The notes beneath the pieces were generated by a model that was not told the origin of the DNA, did no database searches, and saw only the letters and a list, made by a program, of their open reading frames with translations. From Gammaproteobacteria bacterium (GTDB taxonomy: Bacteria; Pseudomonadota; Gammaproteobacteria; UBA11654): a stretch of 10,507 nt of DNA. Positions 208-10,507 of the stretch are shown piece after piece. The position numbers and the translations under genes are program-made. Within the stretch, counting starts at the first letter, position 1; every line of letters starts with the position of its first letter. The DNA lies in NCBI GenBank assembly GCA_018672815.1, contig JABHDX010000060.1:1-10507 (forward strand), read 5' to 3'.

Positions 208-1173
208 TTACTTTTTAAATTGATCTAAAAAACGTTCTGCCGCAAATACCTGATGGGGCGGGATGAATCGGGTTATGGACATTCCAAAAGATCTTTTATT
301 AGCTCTTCCTTCATAATAACCCTTAACAATAGACTCTGCCTCCTCAACCAACTGGCTATGATCATTAGTAAGCGAAATGCAATTTAATTGCTTAAGAGTT
401 TTTGGCTTTTCAGATAATGATAACTCTAAGTTTAGTGTGCACGCCCAGAAATTTAACCTGGGAAATAAAGATTGTAAATAAAATTGAGAGGACCAAAATA
501 ACTCTTTATCATTTGGAAAAGGAAATGGTGTATGTATGTATACCTTTTTATATTCAAGAAGTAATTCAATCATGGGCTTAATTATTTCCCAATACTCCTT
601 ATGGTTAGGGTCGGGAAATGGCCATAAACTTGAATCCAGTGAATAATCAAAATGCCCATAGTGTACTTTTGATATCAAGCCATTAGCTTGATCATCAATC
701 AATAAACCAGATAATTTTTTATACCCTATTTGGGTCTCTATCATGGGAACGATTTCTAACCTAATATCATTTTCCAAAAATAACTCATGGATCATTACAA
801 TCGTTTGATAATTCTCTGTTTTAGGAAGAAAAATCCCCTTGATCGGCATGCCATTCTTTATTGATTTCTTAATAGCAACTACATCTTTATTAAAAAATTC
901 AGAAGTTATAGCATTAACTCGGATATAAATCATAGAGTTAAACTCTTCTTTGAAGGATTCTGATATAGAAATTAAACCTTTCCTTGCTTCATGTTTAAGT
1001 TTCCTAGTTTTTTCAATATTAAATGGATCTTGGGCACTATCTTCAAGATCCAAAATAGCATGTATATTTTTATAATTGAGCTTATTTAAAAACCTTCTTG
1101 ATGCCCTTGCTCTGGTTAATGGTAAGTATTGAATGATTGGAAACTCTGGACTCATGGTTTTATTGACTAGCAT
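208..1173 (-). CDS. HpcH/HpaI (CitE-like) aldolase/lyase family protein
   Basis: A protein of about 321 residues with the TIM-barrel signature of the HpcH/HpaI and citrate-lyase-beta families. These enzymes make or break C-C bonds between pyruvate or acetyl-CoA type units and an aldehyde or oxo acid, using a divalent metal. Visible motifs are LDLEDS (residues 41-46), IRVN (84-87, the substrate-binding Arg), FLPKTE (115-120), PMIET (143-147, probable metal-ligand Glu) and GHFDYSLD (173-180, probable metal-ligand Asp). The start is uncertain. An upstream TTG at 1191 would overlap the preceding gene by 11 bases, ATG 1173 leaves a 7-base gap, and ATG 1155 is also possible. None has a clear Shine-Dalgarno sequence. 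It sits between the DUF4910 gene and the AAC(3)-like gene. I infer a role in making or cleaving a small acid that decorates a sugar, but the substrate is unknown. Confidence 0.8.
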   Translation of the reverse strand: MLVNKTMSPEFPIIQYLPLTRARASRRFLNKLNYKNIHAILDLEDSAQDPFNIEKTRKLKHEARKGLISISESFKEEFNSMIYIRVNAITSEFFNKDVVAIKKSIKNGMPIKGIFLPKTENYQTIVMIHELFLENDIRLEIVPMIETQIGYKKLSGLLIDDQANGLISKVHYGHFDYSLDSSLWPFPDPNHKEYWEIIKPMIELLLEYKKVYIHTPFPFPNDKELFWSSQFYLQSLFPRLNFWACTLNLELSLSEKPKTLKQLNCISLTNDHSQLVEEAESIVKGYYEGRANKRSFGMSITRFIPPHQVFAAERFLDQFKK

Positions 1174-1180
1174 AATAAGA

Positions 1181-2470
1181 TCAAGAATCAACGGATGTAA
1201 TTAAATTACTATCTTTTAATGAATCAATTATCTCAGTCAATTCCCAGATTGGTTTATTTATTTTTTCTGCTATTGACAGTAAATCAGAATCGCCATCAAT
1301 ATATGTTAATAAATTCATCATGGTATCAACGTTTTCATTAGATTCCTTGGTACTGAGTGATGGGTATAAACCTCTTTTACTTAACTGAGGTTCACATAAT
1401 ACGATATTCTTAAATCGCTGATTTAACTCCAGACTTTCGATGGCTTTGATATAGACATTGTATGCTCCATTCAAGCCTTCCATACTGATAAAACTTAAGT
1501 CATCCAAAGAGGTATGATACTCATCATAACTTCCATATTTAGATCTCATAATGCTTGCAACTGGAAGATCAATACCAGGATAACAATATTGTCTTTCATC
1601 GCTCCCTCTATCCAAGAAAGAATATTTCTTATAATTTATTTTTAAATGATTTAACACATGAAGTGCAACCTTATCAGCCAATGTTTTTTCATTTCTGGAT
1701 GGTAAATATGAATAATTATTATTATCTCCAACACATGTAACATTGAATCCAGCAATCATATTTTCTTTTAAGTGATCGAGATTTTTTGATAAATAAGCAA
1801 TGGAACCAATAGTTTCAGGAATAAATATGAACCTATAGCTATTTCTTCTATTCTTTATTGATTGGAGATGTTTTGCTATATGCGTTGTTACGGCTGGACC
1901 AGACAATTCATTATTTGCCATTGAAGGATGGCAAATATAAGTTGAGAGGAATACTTCATCAGTAGAGCTACCCTCCAAAAATAACTCTCCATAGTTCATC
2001 ACTCCATTGGTGAACTCACTATCAATGAATACTCTATAATTGCCATTCTTTAAGTTTTTCTTTTGCTCTTCAGAAATACAAAATCCCCAATCCCTTTCAT
2101 AATATGACGTAATATAAGGTATGGCTGTTGGTTGATCAGGCAAAGAGTAAAGTTTGTTTTTAAGTTTATCCAAAGATAATGTTAGATCTATGGGTGTTGA
2201 GTAACCAACTACATGAAGGTTATTTTCTTTAAAATCAATAATCTTGTTTCCATCTGGATCGATTATATAAGCATCTTTAATATTCCATTCATCAGGTATA
2301 ATCCAGTCAAAGCAATTTGTACCAGAAGGAATTTCGCGAATATTAAAATCTGGCAACTCTCGCTGAAGAATTGAAAGAGTTTCTCTTACTCCAGCTCCTG
2401 TAATGCTTCTATTTATGGGAAATAGCTCACAACATAAATCATATATTTGGTTTTCTTCGGGTTTACTCAT
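1181..2470 (-). CDS. DUF4910 aminopeptidase-like (M28-related) protein with C-terminal winged helix
   Basis: A 429-residue protein of the DUF4910 group, a zinc-peptidase-like fold often found in polysaccharide loci. Residues 1-45 carry LFPINRSITGAG, typical of the family start. An inserted domain (about 50-140) resembles the DUF2172 segment. The catalytic-like core follows, with ICHPSMANNELSGP (179-192, probable metal-ligand His181), FIPETIGS (216-223), DRGSDERQYCYPG (287-299) and EYHTSLDDL (317-325, probable ligand His319). The last 65 or so residues (365-429) look like the small winged-helix domain that ends these proteins. No signal peptide is visible, so it should be cytoplasmic. Known members have been described only as putative aminopeptidases, and amide-bond hydrolysis on an N-acylated sugar is my speculation. 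It starts 26 bases after the second NeuB-family gene, and the next gene starts close to or overlapping its stop, so it is probably in the same operon. Confidence 0.82.
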   Translation of the reverse strand: MSKPEENQIYDLCCELFPINRSITGAGVRETLSILQRELPDFNIREIPSGTNCFDWIIPDEWNIKDAYIIDPDGNKIIDFKENNLHVVGYSTPIDLTLSLDKLKNKLYSLPDQPTAIPYITSYYERDWGFCISEEQKKNLKNGNYRVFIDSEFTNGVMNYGELFLEGSSTDEVFLSTYICHPSMANNELSGPAVTTHIAKHLQSIKNRRNSYRFIFIPETIGSIAYLSKNLDHLKENMIAGFNVTCVGDNNNYSYLPSRNEKTLADKVALHVLNHLKINYKKYSFLDRGSDERQYCYPGIDLPVASIMRSKYGSYDEYHTSLDDLSFISMEGLNGAYNVYIKAIESLELNQRFKNIVLCEPQLSKRGLYPSLSTKESNENVDTMMNLLTYIDGDSDLLSIAEKINKPIWELTEIIDSLKDSNLITSVDS

Positions 2471-2496: not shown

Positions 2497-3552
2497 TCAA
2501 TCAATTAAATCTTCTAGCTCCAACATATCTTTAGGGCTTTTATCTAATTTAAGCTTTTTACCTAATACGAAATGCAGTTGATCTGGTTGAATTCCATGTC
2601 CAGGTCTTCTATAAGTCAGATCTTGTTCACAAATTTGATGCCCAGCCGGTAATTCATTTTTCAAAAAGATAGATCTTCTAATCAAATCTCTTTTTTCTTT
2701 GTCTTTCTTTGTTAATTCATTTTGGGCCATAGCTAGTTCAACATCTCTAATAGAATTAACAAAAGGCTTAAGTTGATGGGGTTCTAGCGACATAATGTGC
2801 TCAACACTAGGAGTTGATTTATCTTCAGTGATGGTTTTTTCTATAATATCAACACCCATGGCTAGTGCGGCTATATCTATCTGCATTCCAATAGAATGAT
2901 CAGAATAGGCAATTGGATAAGAAAACATTTCTTTTAGTTTAGTGATAATTCCTAAATTAATATTCTCAACTTTAGCTGGATATCCAAATGAACAATGATG
3001 AATAATGATATTACTGTTGCCTTCGCTCTCAATAATATCGCATGCTCTTGAAACCTCATCTAAGGTTGACATCCCTGTATCTAATTGAATTGATAGACCT
3101 GTTTTAGCTGCAGCTCTGATCAAAGGAAAATGATTAATATCTGCAGATGCAATTTTGATGGTTTGACATCCCAGTTCAGCTGCAAACTCTATCTCATCTT
3201 CAAAACCAATCGTAACAAAAAAAGCCAAGCCAAGACTATCCGCATAGTTCTTAAGTGAGGTCCATTGATCACGAGAAAGCTCTCTTCTCTTCAAAATCTC
3301 ATAAAGAGATTCTTCAATATTTCTCATCACATTAGTTTCTCTATTAACTAAAATATCATAAGAAAACATCTGCTGCTTATTGGAGATAAGCTTCTCTGAG
3401 TCAAAGATTTGAAATTTAACTGCATCTGCGCCTGACTCAGATGCTATTTTTATCAAATTTTTTGCTGATTCAACTCCATTGTGTGTGGCACCTATCTCGA
3501 AAGTGATAAAACATGGGTGTCCTGGACCTATTTTTTTATTATTAATTTCCAT
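2497..3552 (-). CDS. divergent NeuB/SpsE-family nonulosonate synthase paralogue
   Basis: A 351-residue NeuB-family protein, full length for the family. It has an N-terminal TIM barrel and a C-terminal antifreeze-like (SAF) domain. Family members condense phosphoenolpyruvate with a six-carbon amino sugar to give a nine-carbon nonulosonic acid. Visible motifs are FEIGATHNG (18-26, usually AEIGxNHNG), ADAVKFQ (42-48), TIKIASAD (131-138), DTGMS (158-162), SDHSIG (217-222) and RRPGHGI (315-321) in the SAF domain. His219 matches the first Mn ligand of NeuB. The second ligand, 21 residues later in EKHxT of normal enzymes, is Thr240 here (IEKTITEDK). Its acceptor sugar is therefore uncertain; it could be a legionaminic-, neuraminic- or novel-type synthase. 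ATG 3552, five bases after the pseI stop, gives the usual family N-terminus. ATG 3576 would add eight residues and overlap pseI by 19 bases, with an AAGGGA some 10 bases ahead of it. Confidence 0.88.
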   Translation of the reverse strand: MEINNKKIGPGHPCFITFEIGATHNGVESAKNLIKIASESGADAVKFQIFDSEKLISNKQQMFSYDILVNRETNVMRNIEESLYEILKRRELSRDQWTSLKNYADSLGLAFFVTIGFEDEIEFAAELGCQTIKIASADINHFPLIRAAAKTGLSIQLDTGMSTLDEVSRACDIIESEGNSNIIIHHCSFGYPAKVENINLGIITKLKEMFSYPIAYSDHSIGMQIDIAALAMGVDIIEKTITEDKSTPSVEHIMSLEPHQLKPFVNSIRDVELAMAQNELTKKDKEKRDLIRRSIFLKNELPAGHQICEQDLTYRRPGHGIQPDQLHFVLGKKLKLDKSPKDMLELEDLID

Positions 3553-3557
3553 ATATC

Positions 3558-4598
3558 TTATTCCATCATCTCCCATGAAAGTGGGGTCCCTTTTTTTATA
3601 ACAACTTTAGCAGTTTTTCCTAATACTTCATCAAAATATTTCGGTTCTAACCCAAAGCTAGGTCTAATTCTTCTAATATTCTTAATAGAAATTTGCTCAC
3701 CTACTTCTATATCTTCCACAACATAGATTGATCTTCTAAATCTTAAGTTCTCTTTCTCCTCATCTCTTAATTCATAATTAATCTTACCTAAAGACTTCCA
3801 GACACTTAAAGATTGTTTACATAAGCTGCCTAATTCATCTGGCTCTAGAGAAAATTCACTATCGGGACCTGTATGCTCTCTGCTTGTTGTGACATGTTTT
3901 TCTATAAGGCATGCGCCCAATGCAATTCCTGCCAGAGATGTATCAATACCCATTGTATGATCAGAAAGCCCCACGTCCACATTAAACTCAGAAGAAAGAT
4001 CTGGTATTGTTTTTAGATTATATGCCTCCAAAGGAGCTGGATAGCTGCTAACACAATGCAGCAATACAAGTTCACTACAACCAGCATCTCTTGCTGTTTG
4101 AACAACTTCTGATATTTCTTCATAGTTTGCCATCCCAGTAGAAATAATAAGTGGTTTTTTTGTTGAAGCTGCATACTTAACTAAAGGTATACCAGTAGCC
4201 TCAAACGAAGCAATCTTATAAGCTGGTGAATTCAAATCCTCCAATAAATCTATTGCCGACTCATCAAATGGTGTGCTAAAGCAAGTCAATCCAATTTTTT
4301 TAGAATGACGAAATAATTCTTCATGCCATTCATATGGGGTTTGTGCCCATTGATAAAGCTTATATAAATTATAGCCCTTCCATAAACCTGTTGTGATTTG
4401 AAAATCATCTGTATCGGAATCAATCGTCATGGTATCTGCTTGATATGTTTGGAGTTTAATGGCGTCAGCGCCCTGCTCCTTAGCAATATTAATAATTTCA
4501 ATAGCTCTATCAAAATCTCCATTATGATTAGCAGATAGTTCCGCTACGATATAAGGAGGGCAATTATTACCAATAATTCTTTTATCTATCTTAATCAT
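3558..4598 (-). CDS. pseI: pseudaminic acid synthase
   Basis: A 346-residue NeuB-family enzyme with clear PseI character. It condenses 2,4-diacetamido-2,4,6-trideoxy-L-altrose (or an N-acyl variant) with phosphoenolpyruvate to form pseudaminic acid in the cytoplasm. Diagnostic motifs are AELSANHNG (19-27), IKLQTYQADTMT (47-58), GLWKGYNLYKLYQWAQTP (71-88), FSTPFD (107-112), YKIASFE (127-133), STGMANYEE (153-161), LSDHTMG (211-217), IEKHVT (232-237) and GPDSEFSLEP (244-253). The metal-binding histidines H214 and H235 are both present at the usual 21-residue spacing. The C-terminal SAF domain spans about 288-345 (RRSIYVVEDI, RPSFGLEPK, KGTPL). ATG 4598 is preferred because it gives the usual short leader before the first strand. 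A TTG at 4613 overlaps the GNAT stop as TTGA and would add five residues. The gene lies 11 bases after the GNAT gene, in the same transcription unit. Confidence 0.95.
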   Translation of the reverse strand: MIKIDKRIIGNNCPPYIVAELSANHNGDFDRAIEIINIAKEQGADAIKLQTYQADTMTIDSDTDDFQITTGLWKGYNLYKLYQWAQTPYEWHEELFRHSKKIGLTCFSTPFDESAIDLLEDLNSPAYKIASFEATGIPLVKYAASTKKPLIISTGMANYEEISEVVQTARDAGCSELVLLHCVSSYPAPLEAYNLKTIPDLSSEFNVDVGLSDHTMGIDTSLAGIALGACLIEKHVTTSREHTGPDSEFSLEPDELGSLCKQSLSVWKSLGKINYELRDEEKENLRFRRSIYVVEDIEVGEQISIKNIRRIRPSFGLEPKYFDEVLGKTAKVVIKKGTPLSWEMME

Positions 4599-4609
4599 AA
4601 ATTCTTTAC

Positions 4610-5059
4610 TCAATTAAAGTTATAGTAATTAAAACCCTCATCTTGATTAGTCATTTCAAATAAACACCTTTCAAAACATTTAATAGAAGCCATATTCTCT
4701 TTCTTTACTTTTGCCATTACTGGCAGATGATGAATCAGTCTGAATTGCTTTATAGCGCTGGATAATAACTCCACTGAAACATTTTTTCCACGCCATATAG
4801 GATTTAGATTAATTGAGACAACAGAATTCTTATCATTATTATCTATATCAAAACGAACCATTCCAATGGAGGTTTTTCTCTCTTCATCTTTTCCCAAATA
4901 AATAATGCTTTTTTTTGACTCTAATATTTTTGCATACCATATTTTATGATCCTCCCAGGTAATCCTCTCACCATTAACATACATAGCTCGTGTATGATCA
5001 TCATTTCGCCATTCAAAAATATCTTTTGAATCATCAATAGTTGCTATATCTAATTTCAT
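4610..5059 (-). CDS. GNAT-family N-acyltransferase, PseH-like
   Basis: A 149-residue single-domain GNAT acetyltransferase. EWRND (16-20) and ERITWEDHKIWYAKIL (31-46) are typical of PseH and of the acetyltransferases tied to PseG. In the pathway, PseH acetylates the 4-amino group of UDP-4-amino-4,6-dideoxy-beta-L-AltNAc using acetyl-CoA. IGMVRFDID (65-73) and VSINLNPIWRGKNVSVELL (81-99) form the core strand and the CoA pyrophosphate loop. That loop reads RGKNVS rather than the usual RGxGxG/A. The tail AKVKKENMASIKCFERC (116-132) matches the GNAT helix with 'N..Si..feK.GF'. The start codon overlaps the formyltransferase stop as ATGA. Position next to pseI supports a PseH role, but the acyl group could be other than acetyl. 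The gene contains an A8 run (bases 4909-4916). Confidence 0.83.
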   Translation of the reverse strand: MKLDIATIDDSKDIFEWRNDDHTRAMYVNGERITWEDHKIWYAKILESKKSIIYLGKDEERKTSIGMVRFDIDNNDKNSVVSINLNPIWRGKNVSVELLSSAIKQFRLIHHLPVMAKVKKENMASIKCFERCLFEMTNQDEGFNYYNFN

Positions 5060-5727
5060 TTAGACTTGATAGTAACCACAGCACGAAGTTCATCACCTAT
5101 TTTTTCTACTTGGCTAAATTCAATGCCTTTACTTCCTAGGTCAATAAAAGCTTTAGGGTAGTCTGGTCCATCCAACATTCTTATATGATTATAAAGTTGA
5201 TCAATTGAGTAATTCTCAGGTATTTTACTATCAGATGGTTTTCTTCTTTTAAAAAAACGAGGTTCTCCAATTTGATCTATAGGCATAGGTTCATTATTAA
5301 TAATATTGATAATCATCAATTCGATTTTTTTAGCAATTCTTGGAAAAATATCAGAGAGTGATCCTGATAAAGAAATATCCATAGATTCATAAATTGGTCC
5401 ACTATCTAGATTTTTACTCATCTTCAGTGCATTAACGGGAGACTCCTCAAAATCTTGCATTATTAAATTCTGAATAGGGCTGCCTCCTCTACCATATGGT
5501 AATGGGGCTGTGTGAAATGCAACACACTCAAAAGTATCGAAGATATCTGAGGAAACTTTCCAGTTCCAATGAGGAAAGAATATATATCTTGGACTAATTC
5601 TATCTAAGTTTTCTTTATTTAAGTCTTCTTTGTTATTGATATAAGTAAAATCATATTCCAAGAAAGCTGGACTCTTTTCTTCATTAAGGAACCAATCTCT
5701 AGAACTAGCTATAACATATCTCTTCAT
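5056..5727 (-). CDS. sugar N-formyltransferase (methionyl-tRNA formyltransferase-like)
   Basis: A 223-residue protein of the formyl_transferase fold, which uses N10-formyltetrahydrofolate. It is shorter than Fmt (about 310 residues), in line with sugar formyltransferases rather than Met-tRNA enzymes. The active-site region is VAFHTAPLPYGRGGSPIQNL (69-88) with His72, and the catalytic Asp is Asp108 in KNLDSGPIY (105-113). The family normally has Asn two residues before the His (NxH); here that position is Ala70. The C-terminal part has FFKRRKPSD (158-166) and HIRMLDGPDYPKAF (181-194), resembling the tail region of amino-sugar formyltransferases. It probably formylates the amine of a UDP-4-amino sugar or of a sugar deacetylated by its neighbour. 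It overlaps the PIG-L gene upstream and the GNAT gene downstream, each by four bases (ATGA), so the three proteins should be made together. Confidence 0.85.
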   Translation of the reverse strand: MKRYVIASSRDWFLNEEKSPAFLEYDFTYINNKEDLNKENLDRISPRYIFFPHWNWKVSSDIFDTFECVAFHTAPLPYGRGGSPIQNLIMQDFEESPVNALKMSKNLDSGPIYESMDISLSGSLSDIFPRIAKKIELMIINIINNEPMPIDQIGEPRFFKRRKPSDSKIPENYSIDQLYNHIRMLDGPDYPKAFIDLGSKGIEFSQVEKIGDELRAVVTIKSK

Positions 5728-6401
5728 CTTTTTATCTTTCTGAGGATTTGGAATGCCTCTGCTAGATTTAAACCAACCTGATTGCCTCTATAGTTAGCTA
5801 AAGTTTCTATACCATGAAGTGACCTCGAATGAGGCTCCTCCCTAATTTCACCTTGATATTGCATTAGAGCTTGATGCTTCTTTTCCCAAAATTCCTCAAT
5901 TGAAATAAACATATTTGGATAAAAACTTGATGTTACATCCTCATGACTATAATCAGTTGCAGAGGGAATCTCAAATGCACGAATCTCCTTCCATTTTTCA
6001 TCAGGTTGTGGCCTAAAAGCTGTCATTGTTGCTTCTGCTACAATCCTATGATCTATATTCAAGTCTGCAGTACTATGGGTATATACAATTGTTGGATGAA
6101 CTTTTTCCTTAGCCGCTTCAATAAACTTAACAACATCCAATAACGGTATTGAATCCATTGAATTATCTGGAAAATTAGCATTATCCAGCCACTTAAAACC
6201 AAGTATTTCTGATGCATTGTGAGCAGCCTTTTGTCTATTTTCAACTATTTCATCAGAATGATTAGATCTAGCACCAACACCGTCTGTCATAGATATAGAA
6301 AAGACATTATCTCCTTCAAAAACATGCCTCGCAATCGTTCCACCCATTCCTATGGTCTCATCATCAGTATGAGCTACAATAACTAATATTATTTCATTCA
6401 T
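5724..6401 (-). CDS. PIG-L/LmbE-family N-deacetylase
   Basis: A 225-residue zinc-dependent deacetylase of the PIG-L (LmbE) family, whose members remove an N-acetyl group from amino sugars or their conjugates. The metal/catalytic motif AHTDDE (10-15) has Thr in place of the usual Pro of AHPDDE, but keeps His11, Asp13 and Asp14. The second motif, HSTADLNIDHR (109-119), supplies His118. Other family features are GGTIARH (20-26), SMTDG (37-41) and ENRQKAA (54-60). ATG 6401 is secure because an in-frame TAG lies 21 bases upstream. There is only a weak ribosome-binding sequence ahead of it. It is the first gene of the overlap cluster. A 117-bp gap separates it from pseG, so a separate promoter is possible. 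Possible substrates are an N-acetylated UDP sugar or a finished nonulosonate, which the neighbouring formyl- or acetyltransferase could then re-acylate; this is inference. Confidence 0.88.
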   Translation of the reverse strand: MNEIILVIVAHTDDETIGMGGTIARHVFEGDNVFSISMTDGVGARSNHSDEIVENRQKAAHNASEILGFKWLDNANFPDNSMDSIPLLDVVKFIEAAKEKVHPTIVYTHSTADLNIDHRIVAEATMTAFRPQPDEKWKEIRAFEIPSATDYSHEDVTSSFYPNMFISIEEFWEKKHQALMQYQGEIREEPHSRSLHGIETLANYRGNQVGLNLAEAFQILRKIKR

Positions 6402-6518: not shown

Positions 6519-6526
6519 TTATGATG
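6509..6526. repeat. 18-bp perfect palindrome over the pseG stop codon
   Basis: CATCATAAATTTATGATG is its own reverse complement and covers the TAA of pseG (6519-6521). As RNA it could fold into a 7-bp stem with an AAUU loop. No U-tract follows on the minus strand, and the stem is AT-rich, so it is not a typical intrinsic terminator. It could be an mRNA-end hairpin, an operator-like site, or chance. Confidence 0.45.
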
Positions 6527-7610
6527 AGGATGTAAAATCTTTCATTATTGATTCCGTTATTCTCTTTGAGCCTAAACCATCACATAGACTAAAGGCTTTT
6601 TCTTGCATTGATAATAAAAGAGTTATGTCCTTATTACATGATTTTAAGCTTATTAATAAATCTTCAGTGGAGCCCCAATAACATGCTGCCCCTGATTCCG
6701 TAATGCCTTTAATATTTCTTTTCTGATTGGACGCAATACTTGTTAGAAATGATGGAAGCCCTAAAACACATCGCTCCCATGCACTATTACCGCCGGAGCC
6801 AATGGCTATATCTGCATTATACATAAGTGTTTCCATATCACTTATATTACTATGAATGCTTACCTCTAACTCTAATGAATCAATATCATTTGTAACTTTC
6901 TCAAGGCTTGGTGAATTAGAATCTAGAACACAGTTAACTTTTATGTTTTGTTTCCAGTCAACTTGATTGATTGTATTAATTGCTAAGCTAGAATAATTAT
7001 CTGGATCCATAGATCCCATAAAAATTAATATTTCTTGAATTGACGAAGTATGTTCTCTTTTCTTCTTAGCTTGTAATCTTAAATTGCTAAATTTAGGGTC
7101 TATCAAAGCATAATTAGGCCCTAAAAAAGAAACATAATCTTTCTTAGAGATAAATTTTGTATAGTCTTTATCTTTATTGATAAAAGATGAGTTTAATAGA
7201 AAATCACAATCTAGATGTCTATTTGCTAAATCATCAATAATAAATATTTTTTTACAATAATCTCTCACTTTGCTGTGCCAATGAGCATCAATTCCGTAAT
7301 GGTCAACAATCAATAAATCTACATCAATACCATCAATAATTTGAATAACTTCATTAACATCTTGCTCCCAATCAACAGAAAGCCAAGATTCATATGATGC
7401 TTTATTTATCTCAGTATTGGTTTTTTTTTGCAGCAACTTAACTTTATGATCAGTAGCAAATAAAATCTCATAATCTTGATCACTCTCGGGTCTACATATA
7501 AAAATTATCTCACTGCCAAGGGCTTTAAATTCGTCTGCTAAAGTAAGACATCTAGCTAAGTGGCCATTACCTATTCTTACGGATGCATCTAATCTAAATA
7601 CTATTCTCAT
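6519..7610 (-). CDS. pseG: UDP-2,4-diacetamido-2,4,6-trideoxy-beta-L-altropyranose hydrolase
   Basis: A 363-residue PseG with a GT-B-like fold, related to MurG. It cleaves the UDP sugar at the anomeric carbon, releasing UDP and the free 2,4-diacetamido sugar that PseI uses. Diagnostic motifs are FRLDAS (5-10) and IGNGHLARCLTLA (13-25). The latter includes His17, which matches the catalytic His17 described for Campylobacter PseG. Others are VDHYGID (102-108), IIDDLANRHLDCDFLLN (124-140), FLGPNYALIDPKF (162-174), FMGSMDPDN (197-205, the usual Gly-Gly-x-Asp region), IGSGGNSAWERCVLGLPS (270-287) and LCDGLGSKRI near the end. It is a stand-alone PseG without the fused acetyltransferase seen in some species; the GNAT gene is three genes downstream. 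The gene contains an A9 run (bases 7421-7429, codons 61-64). Its ATG has no clear Shine-Dalgarno sequence, and it lies 74 bases after the SIS-domain gene. Confidence 0.93.
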   Translation of the reverse strand: MRIVFRLDASVRIGNGHLARCLTLADEFKALGSEIIFICRPESDQDYEILFATDHKVKLLQKKTNTEINKASYESWLSVDWEQDVNEVIQIIDGIDVDLLIVDHYGIDAHWHSKVRDYCKKIFIIDDLANRHLDCDFLLNSSFINKDKDYTKFISKKDYVSFLGPNYALIDPKFSNLRLQAKKKREHTSSIQEILIFMGSMDPDNYSSLAINTINQVDWKQNIKVNCVLDSNSPSLEKVTNDIDSLELEVSIHSNISDMETLMYNADIAIGSGGNSAWERCVLGLPSFLTSIASNQKRNIKGITESGAACYWGSTEDLLISLKSCNKDITLLLSMQEKAFSLCDGLGSKRITESIMKDFTSSS

Positions 7611-9447: not shown

Positions 9448-10507
9448 TTAATTAAGAGACAAACCTTCCTTCTGAAAAAAATCAATCCACTCAACAGTCC
9501 ATTCATCGCCTACTGTTCCACACATCTCAAAAAAATAGTCTATAGCTCTCCTTGTTGATGGATCTAACCACCATTCATCAGGATTATCCCAAACTTGATT
9601 GATGTGTTCTGCTGCTTTCAGTGGATCAGTAAAAATAATTTTATTACGCTTTAACTGCTCAATTAAATCATCAAACTGAGGATGAAAGGGCCAATGCTCT
9701 TCACAAAACAACAGTATGGTTGGGATGTTTGAATGCATTGCTTCTGAGAAAGTAGTTAGAGGGTAAGTACAGACCACTAATTTAGAGTGAGATAAAGCTT
9801 GCTTTAGTGATGAGTAGTTAGAGATTTTATCTCGACCTAAATCTCTCGCATATCTATCTCTAGAGCAAGTCCATCCATTTCCTCTACTATAGGATCTAAT
9901 ACTTAAGTGATCAGTAATCTCTTGATTCAATGCATTAGCAAATGTTATTTTTTGATCATAATCATCAGAATAATTCTTTGCAAAAGGTCCAGCTTGAGCC
10001 CGAAATGAATAACGTGATGTTTCAAAACCCACCAATGTTAAATTTGAACTGGTTTTCTTAGAAATTACATTAAAGATAGTTTGCCTTAATCCAGATATTA
10101 ATTTATTTGGCGTTAATTGAACCTGATTGCTCATATATGGCTTATGCCAGACTGTCATAGTGTCAGCAATCTTCTCTTGATGATCAAAAAACTGATATCT
10201 TGATCGAATTGCACCGCCATGTTGTGATACCACTAACCTTTTTCCATCTTCCACTTGGCCACCGGCCCAACAGTTAAAAAGATCATTATCCAGGTGAGCA
10301 TTGGCTGTAAAGATAACATCTCCATTTGTCTTGATTGATGAGGCCACTCGTTTCAGTTCATGAAAACCTTCCAGATAAGCAATTGGAATCTGGCTAAAAA
10401 TATGTTGTTGAAAAAACTCTTCAAAGTCATTTGTTGCATTAATATCAATGTTGCGACTATAACGCTCTTGATTTACAGAGGGATAATTAACTGTTTGGAA
10501 GAATTCA
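9448..10507 (-). CDS. LIC12162-family putative transferase, C-terminal part (N-terminus beyond right edge)
   Basis: The reading frame stays open to the window edge, so this is a 5'-truncated gene showing about 352 residues. A GTG at 10347 is an internal Val codon and not the start: in-frame protein such as QIPIAYLEGFHELKRV runs upstream of it. Visible features fit the LIC12162 family of putative transferases first noted in Leptospira surface-glycan loci. They are IPIAYLEGF before the conserved core, SQHGGAIR (visible residues about 94-101), CTYPLTTFSEAMHSNIPTIL, and the end LKAAEHINQVWDNPDEWW. The HGG segment and the 'T..EA...IPt' stretch resemble GT-B glycosyltransferase nucleotide-sugar sites. 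It may transfer a sugar during glycan assembly, but the activity is not established. The next gene follows after 79 bases. Confidence 0.82.
   Translation of the reverse strand, partial: EFFQTVNYPSVNQERYSRNIDINATNDFEEFFQQHIFSQIPIAYLEGFHELKRVASSIKTNGDVIFTANAHLDNDLFNCWAGGQVEDGKRLVVSQHGGAIRSRYQFFDHQEKIADTMTVWHKPYMSNQVQLTPNKLISGLRQTIFNVISKKTSSNLTLVGFETSRYSFRAQAGPFAKNYSDDYDQKITFANALNQEITDHLSIRSYSRGNGWTCSRDRYARDLGRDKISNYSSLKQALSHSKLVVCTYPLTTFSEAMHSNIPTILLFCEEHWPFHPQFDDLIEQLKRNKIIFTDPLKAAEHINQVWDNPDEWWLDPSTRRAIDYFFEMCGTVGDEWTVEWIDFFQKEGLSLN

Follow-up and report, generated by a model that had tools for sequence, protein, structure and literature searches.

The DNA analysed here, called the window throughout, comprises positions 1 to 10,507 of contig JABHDX010000060.1 (assembly GCA_018672815.1) from a Gammaproteobacteria bacterium, 10,507 nucleotides in all. 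It carries two overlapping genes of the NeuB family of sialic-acid-type synthases, a canonical PseI (P0002) and a paralogue (P0001) that we refer to as EKTIT-type and that is the subject of this analysis.

2497..3576, minus strand: EKTIT-type NeuB paralogue P0001, 359 amino acids, ATG at 3576, alternative start M9 at 3552
3558..4613, minus strand: canonical PseI (P0002), overlapping the start of the EKTIT gene; 494 bits to TIGR03586 (cut-off 340)

An earlier note on this DNA took the frame 2497-3552, beginning at M9, which is the start point of most aligned homologues; its H219, T240 and H252 are H227, T248 and H260 of P0001. The protein scores above the Pfam cut-offs for both the NeuB domain (227.2 bits; cut-off 22.1) and the SAF domain (23.4 bits; cut-off 21), and the top structural matches of its AlphaFold2 model (mean predicted local distance difference test score 91.1) are NeuB/PseI synthases. 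Of the two metal-binding histidines that mark the family, the first (H227) is present and the second is replaced by Thr248, within the motif IIEKTITEDK; THNG stands where canonical enzymes have NHNG. Both changes had been described in the earlier note, as had the intact histidine pair of the neighbouring PseI (H219 and H240 of P0002, there numbered H214 and H235). The codons from T248 to H260 were confirmed in the DNA, as were those of D166 and H193, two further residues of interest. Against the equivalog models, P0001 reaches 210.7 bits for PseI (TIGR03586) and 277.9 bits for NeuB_NnaB (TIGR03569), below the cut-offs of 340 and 400.

A protein search returned 2,987 homologues; among the 120 matches listed plus the query, position 248 is Thr in 120/121 and Ser in 1/121. 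We assembled 81 loci, 80 from named genomes (kept from 92 candidates with a relative) and one from a viral contig, and compared 82 EKTIT rows (the 81 loci plus the window) with 65 canonical, or H-type, rows from the same loci. Two peptide patterns served to gather the loci, and since one of them includes EKT, the Thr248 count among these loci is partly by construction; the other changed residues described below appear in neither pattern. Eight further members came from a whole-genome profile search that was not built on the EKT motif, and all eight have T248, E259 and D166; position 193 is His in six, Asn in one and Met in one, and one of the eight genes is split by stops. In a FastTree tree, with canonical rows drawn only from EKTIT loci, no characterised LegI included and Shimodaira-Hasegawa (SH) support in place of a bootstrap, the 82 EKTIT rows form one side of a single branch with SH support 99, which bears out the earlier impression that such a subclade exists. 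None of the 82 rows reaches the PseI or NeuB_NnaB cut-off, as judged by E-value through the relation between E-value and bits for P0001 (best E-values 3.7e-69 for TIGR03586 and 2.9e-87 for TIGR03569).

How far the EKTIT branch departs from its canonical neighbours is seen in the columns that both groups hold fixed. Of 341 columns compared, 34 are conserved in both (90% in EKTIT, 85% in H-type rows); 28 of these are identical and six differ. In Neisseria numbering the six changes are N29T, S154D, L180H, G211A, H236T and D247E, corresponding in P0001 to 31 N to T, 166 S to D, 193 L to H, 223 G to A, 248 H to T and 259 D to E:

3484..3486, minus strand: T31 (Neisseria N29); T in 81 and S in 1 of 82 EKTIT rows, N in 62 of 64 readable H-type rows
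3079..3081, minus strand: D166 (Neisseria S154); D in 82/82 EKTIT rows, S in 65/65 H-type rows
2998..3000, minus strand: H193 (Neisseria L180); H in 79 and N in 3 of 82 EKTIT rows, L in 58/65 H-type rows
2908..2910, minus strand: A223; A in 98% of 82 EKTIT rows, G in 65/65 H-type rows
2833..2835, minus strand: T248 (Neisseria H236, the second metal histidine); T in 81 and S in 1 of 82 EKTIT rows, H in 65/65 H-type rows
2800..2802, minus strand: E259 (Neisseria D247); E in 81/81 readable EKTIT rows, D in 65/65 H-type rows

D166, Thr or Ser at 248, and E259 occur together in every readable EKTIT row, and the H-type rows without exception have S, H and D there. In the AlphaFold2 model, strand 5 carries position 166, strand 6 position 193, strand 7 position 223 and strand 8 position 248; T31 lies just past strand 1, and E259 is in the segment following strand 8. 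The changed metal site proposed in the earlier note holds up, and the replacement of His by Thr turns out to be one of six coordinated changes. Since S154D (strand 5) and L180H (strand 6) are away from the histidine pair, the changes may reach beyond the metal site; D166 and H193 are on neighbouring strands and may touch. P0001 itself is unlike its clade at 196-197, where it has SF and most members have PS. The observation is borne out and can be put more sharply: the EKTIT type is a conserved branch of NeuB whose active site has been rebuilt, it recurs across many bacteria that are only distantly related, and it usually stands next to a normal synthase in clusters of the pseudaminic type.

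Most of the remaining active site is retained, including the first metal histidine and a nearby glutamate:

2896..2898, minus strand: H227, first metal histidine (Neisseria H215); H in 82/82 EKTIT and 65/65 H-type rows
2839..2841, minus strand: E246 (Neisseria E234); E in 82/82 EKTIT and 65/65 H-type rows

A passage of PMC6795526 names Glu25, Gln55, Thr110, Lys129, Ser213, His215, Glu234, Arg314 and Tyr186 among the contact residues of the Neisseria enzyme. In the EKTIT rows, E25, K53, Q55, T110, K129, S213, H215 and E234 (Neisseria numbering) are kept in 82/82, the SAF-domain arginine R314 (P0001 R324) in 81/81 readable rows and the Tyr186 position in 80/82; at the Asn184 position, most EKTIT and most H-type rows have Ser. 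Small residues fill the Phe112-aligned position in 72 or more of the 82 rows (G 38, C 13, A 9, T 8, S 4), against Phe in 42/45 PseI-like rows; an altered acceptor sugar is possible on this basis. The alignment did not place the Asn74 and Phe288 positions reliably. Decay of this gene can be rejected, in agreement with the earlier note, because P0001 has its full length and the clade as a whole shares the new residues as fixed changes.

The earlier note suggested His260 as the substitute ligand. This residue is His in 81/81 readable EKTIT rows, yet it is also His in 17/65 canonical rows and so is not diagnostic, which weakens the suggestion; the diagnostic change is E259, just before it. A better candidate set of metal ligands is E259 with the retained H227 and E246. 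As to how far canonical enzymes depend on the second histidine, part of a study of Caulobacter NeuB (PMC7591256) describes an H245A variant that, when induced, gave some motility and flagellin modification, far below wild type, and without inducer no activity in vivo. We take H245 to be the second metal histidine because the spacing from E30 to H245 (215) equals that from E25 to H240 in the window PseI, in which the first histidine is at a spacing of 194. The second histidine matters, yet it is not absolutely essential in the canonical enzyme.

KDO8P synthase, which exists in metal and non-metal forms, offers an analogy in how it works, and in that alone: its substrate is another one, and its switch is from Cys to Asn and not from His to Thr. 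According to the portion of PMC3052366 that bears on this, the metal-dependent form holds its metal through Cys, His, Glu and Asp, and non-metal forms have Asn for the Cys. A profile alignment places the NeuB E-K-H over the KDO8P synthase E-T-H and sets a lysine against the Ser154 position, with a probability of 87%, so residue matches between the two families are tentative; the same holds for the placement of the strands with the Ser154 and Leu180 positions opposite the KDO8P synthase stretches KKGQF and TERG. The KDO8P synthase Cys falls two residues before the N29 position, and the EKTIT profile left that region unaligned; we therefore do not claim that Asn29/Thr31 corresponds to the Cys/Asn switch.

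The neighbourhood of EKTIT genes was surveyed by clustering called open reading frames (ORFs) in the 81 loci, many of which are ended by contig edges, and by family scans of representatives. PseC was found in 58 loci, PseB and PseF in 53 each and PseG in 51, with PseC immediately upstream in 33/78 and PseF immediately downstream in 32/78 (the PseF representative scored 149 bits, below the PseF cut-off of 206). Other neighbours were HisF (28), WbuX (26), PIG-L (22), HisH (22), formyltransferase (16) and a GSA-aminotransferase-like protein (15). EKTIT genes belong to pseudaminic-acid-type clusters. A PseH match above the cut-off was found in 0/35 EKTIT genomes versus 1/14 control genomes; as the controls themselves have so few, the absence says little.

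Taken together, these data suggest, with a probability that we put at about 0.5, that the EKTIT gene encodes a catalytically competent second nonulosonate synthase whose metal dependence is altered or absent and which would work in a pseudaminic-acid-type pathway alongside the ordinary enzyme. Catalysis is argued for by the invariance of most other active-site residues, and we infer that the enzyme most likely still condenses phosphoenolpyruvate (PEP) with an aldose from the PseB/PseC route. Its catalytic corner would have been rebuilt through His236 to Thr, Asp247 to Glu and Asn29 to Thr, with Asp166 and His193 in place of Ser154 and Leu180; with that corner rebuilt, and by analogy with the metal and non-metal forms of KDO8P synthase, it should need no metal or hold one differently, through His227, Glu246 and Glu259. 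A bolder form of this proposal, to which we would give somewhat less than even odds, is that EKTIT proteins constitute an undescribed class of metal-free or differently metallated sialic-acid-type synthases, possibly with donor chemistry altered by the Asp-His pair, that makes or edits an unrecognised nonulosonic acid within PseB-PseC-PseF pathways.

Several observations weigh against a second, competent synthase. An Asp at the Ser154 position, opposite the KDO8P synthase lysine, would be odd if the pocket holds the phosphate of PEP, and it is this acid, close to where PEP would bind, that casts most doubt on ordinary PEP chemistry. The weakness of Caulobacter H245A, as given in the same portion of PMC7591256, indicates that the histidine matters in a canonical context. 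A divergent relative (L147, genome G1080) has T248, E259 and D166 but has lost H193, and it differs elsewhere too, in the region of strands 4 and 5. The near-constant presence of a canonical NeuB in EKTIT genomes (43/44) means that the EKTIT protein may not suffice alone. The proposal draws on sequence, a predicted fold and gene context.

That constant company could have another meaning, namely that the EKTIT protein is a partner subunit, which would join the canonical synthase and modulate it while catalysing little or nothing by itself. NeuB dimers exchange SAF domains across active sites. A canonical synthase lies inside the fetched stretch in 60/81 loci, and a whole-genome PF03102 search, which first covered 35 of the 80 loci, found one in 34/35 genomes and then in 9/9 further ones; the arginine R324 of the SAF domain is kept, and the EKTIT and PseI genes overlap in the window. 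Across the 18 loci in which every gene is present, EKTIT protein and partner show a distance correlation of 0.61, as high as that with any pathway gene. In a larger set, by contrast, the partner correlation is 0.32 (55 pairs), below the 0.47-0.59 seen with PseB, PseC, PseF and PseG (50-57 loci). The partners are moreover of several types (at 1e-101, 36/65 match PseI and 6/65 match NeuB_NnaB), and the active-site residues of EKTIT proteins show the degree of conservation of a working enzyme. In one genome, a single 3.78-Mb contig (G1301), about 1.9 Mb separates the EKTIT gene from the one other NeuB gene, although the PseB of the EKTIT cluster there is a C-terminal fragment. On balance we consider a partner subunit unlikely. 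Neither this genome nor the lone one with no canonical NeuB match, a metagenome-assembled genome (MAG; G020) whose contig stops just after PseG, settles whether an EKTIT protein can be the sole synthase.

The fold may alternatively have been reused for other chemistry, with Asp166 and His193 as an acid/base pair acting, for example, on a non-PEP donor or editing a finished nonulosonic acid. Substitutions that alter the charge at Ser154 and at Leu180, opposite KKGQF and TERG, fit this idea, as do the small residue at the Phe112-aligned position and the standard synthase already provided in most loci. It is set against K54, Q56, T122, K141 and S225 of the canonical active site, kept in 82/82 rows; we regard it as doubtful. 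A plain Mn-dependent nonulosonate synthase whose lost ligand is replaced by E259, together with H227 and E246, and which perhaps uses another acceptor sugar, would account for D247E accompanying H236T in every readable row and for the parallel with the His, Glu and Asp ligands (besides Cys) given for metal-dependent KDO8P synthase in that part of PMC3052366, but it leaves D166 and H193 unexplained and is improbable.

A second nonulosonate synthase with altered metal use, the reading we favour, would differ from each known relative. All of the second metal histidine, Asp247, Ser154, Leu180 and Asn29 of PseI (TIGR03586; PDB 8h2c) are replaced in the EKTIT type, which likewise lacks one of the two metal histidines of NeuB (TIGR03569; PDB 1xuu, 2wqp). 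Automatic annotation names EKTIT members legionaminate synthase, SpsE or NeuB family; unlike them, the structure 1vli, of the SpsE / N,N'-diacetyllegionaminate synthase kind, has the canonical EKH and ADH. We found no characterised EKTIT member, and no description of the subfamily in the open-licence PMC literature, a scope outside which most subscription papers fall. Flagella, capsules and lipopolysaccharides are decorated with nonulosonic acids, and which of these a bacterium makes is commonly predicted from its NeuB homologues. The names now given to EKTIT genes, which nearly always sit in genomes with a normal synthase, could lead to mispredicted products. If active, the EKTIT enzyme would be a natural test of the family's need for metal, a counterpart to the KDO8P synthases with and without metal.

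The branch is widespread and rare. Record titles place it in alpha-, beta- and gammaproteobacteria, Desulfobacterales, Cyanobacteria, Nitrospinota, Phycisphaerales, Elusimicrobia, Rokubacteria, Fibrobacteria, Eremiobacterota and a Thermoplasmata bin. Matches above 300 bits, centre genomes included, were found in 6/385 genomes of the class of Fodinicurvata, 3/369 of the class of Hahella, 3/395 of the phylum of a Desulfobacteraceae MAG and 2/244 of the phylum of the cyanobacterium Baaleninema; the Fodinicurvata-class sample has a score gap from 361 to 249 bits, and the cut used in the other three samples would hide one. Searches for a mobile-element link gave no match: none in phages by megablast of the window or by tblastn at 1e-30, and none in plasmids by tblastn at 1e-60. 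A 105-kb IMG/VR contig, the viral-collection entry among the loci, encodes an EKTIT synthase (38% identity) together with PseB, PseC, PseF, PseG, PIG-L and a canonical-type NeuB.

The window continues on both sides of the two synthase genes as follows:

4610..5059, minus strand: GNAT acetyltransferase, PseH-like; 40.6 bits, below the PseH cut-off of 93.1
5056..5727, minus strand: formyltransferase-like protein, from domain and family scans
5724..6401, minus strand: PIG-L-type deacetylase (PF02585)
6519..7610, minus strand: PseG-type UDP-sugar hydrolase; TIGR03590, 257 bits (cut-off 154)
9448-10506, minus strand: LIC12162-family transferase, truncated at the window edge so that its C-terminal part is present; 254 bits (cut-off 225)
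1181-2470, minus strand: DUF4910/DUF2172/winged-helix protein by domain scan, adjoining the EKTIT gene
208-1191, minus strand: protein directly after the DUF4910 gene; no Pfam match, weak match to the C-C lyase RipC (29.9 bits, cut-off 375)

PseB, PseC and PseF were not among the scanned ORFs of the window, and no relative of the 208-1191 protein was among the ORFs called in the 81 loci. Relatives of the DUF4910 protein occur in three of these loci (L001, L048, L057), and all three loci also have genes for a formyltransferase and a PIG-L protein.

Some canonical partners (L012, L008, L015 and similar) have E-I-H, E-F-H or E-V-H instead of E-K-H, several with an insertion after SDH; these represent additional types of synthase next to EKTIT genes. 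One locus holds a decayed EKTIT copy, split by stop codons (L145:7727-8793, minus strand, genome G783), beside PseI, formyltransferase and PseG ORFs of intact length. One homologue of 393 amino acids (P0005) has an N-terminal extension that we take to resemble the end of PseF, and a PseF and an EKTIT frame may be joined there.
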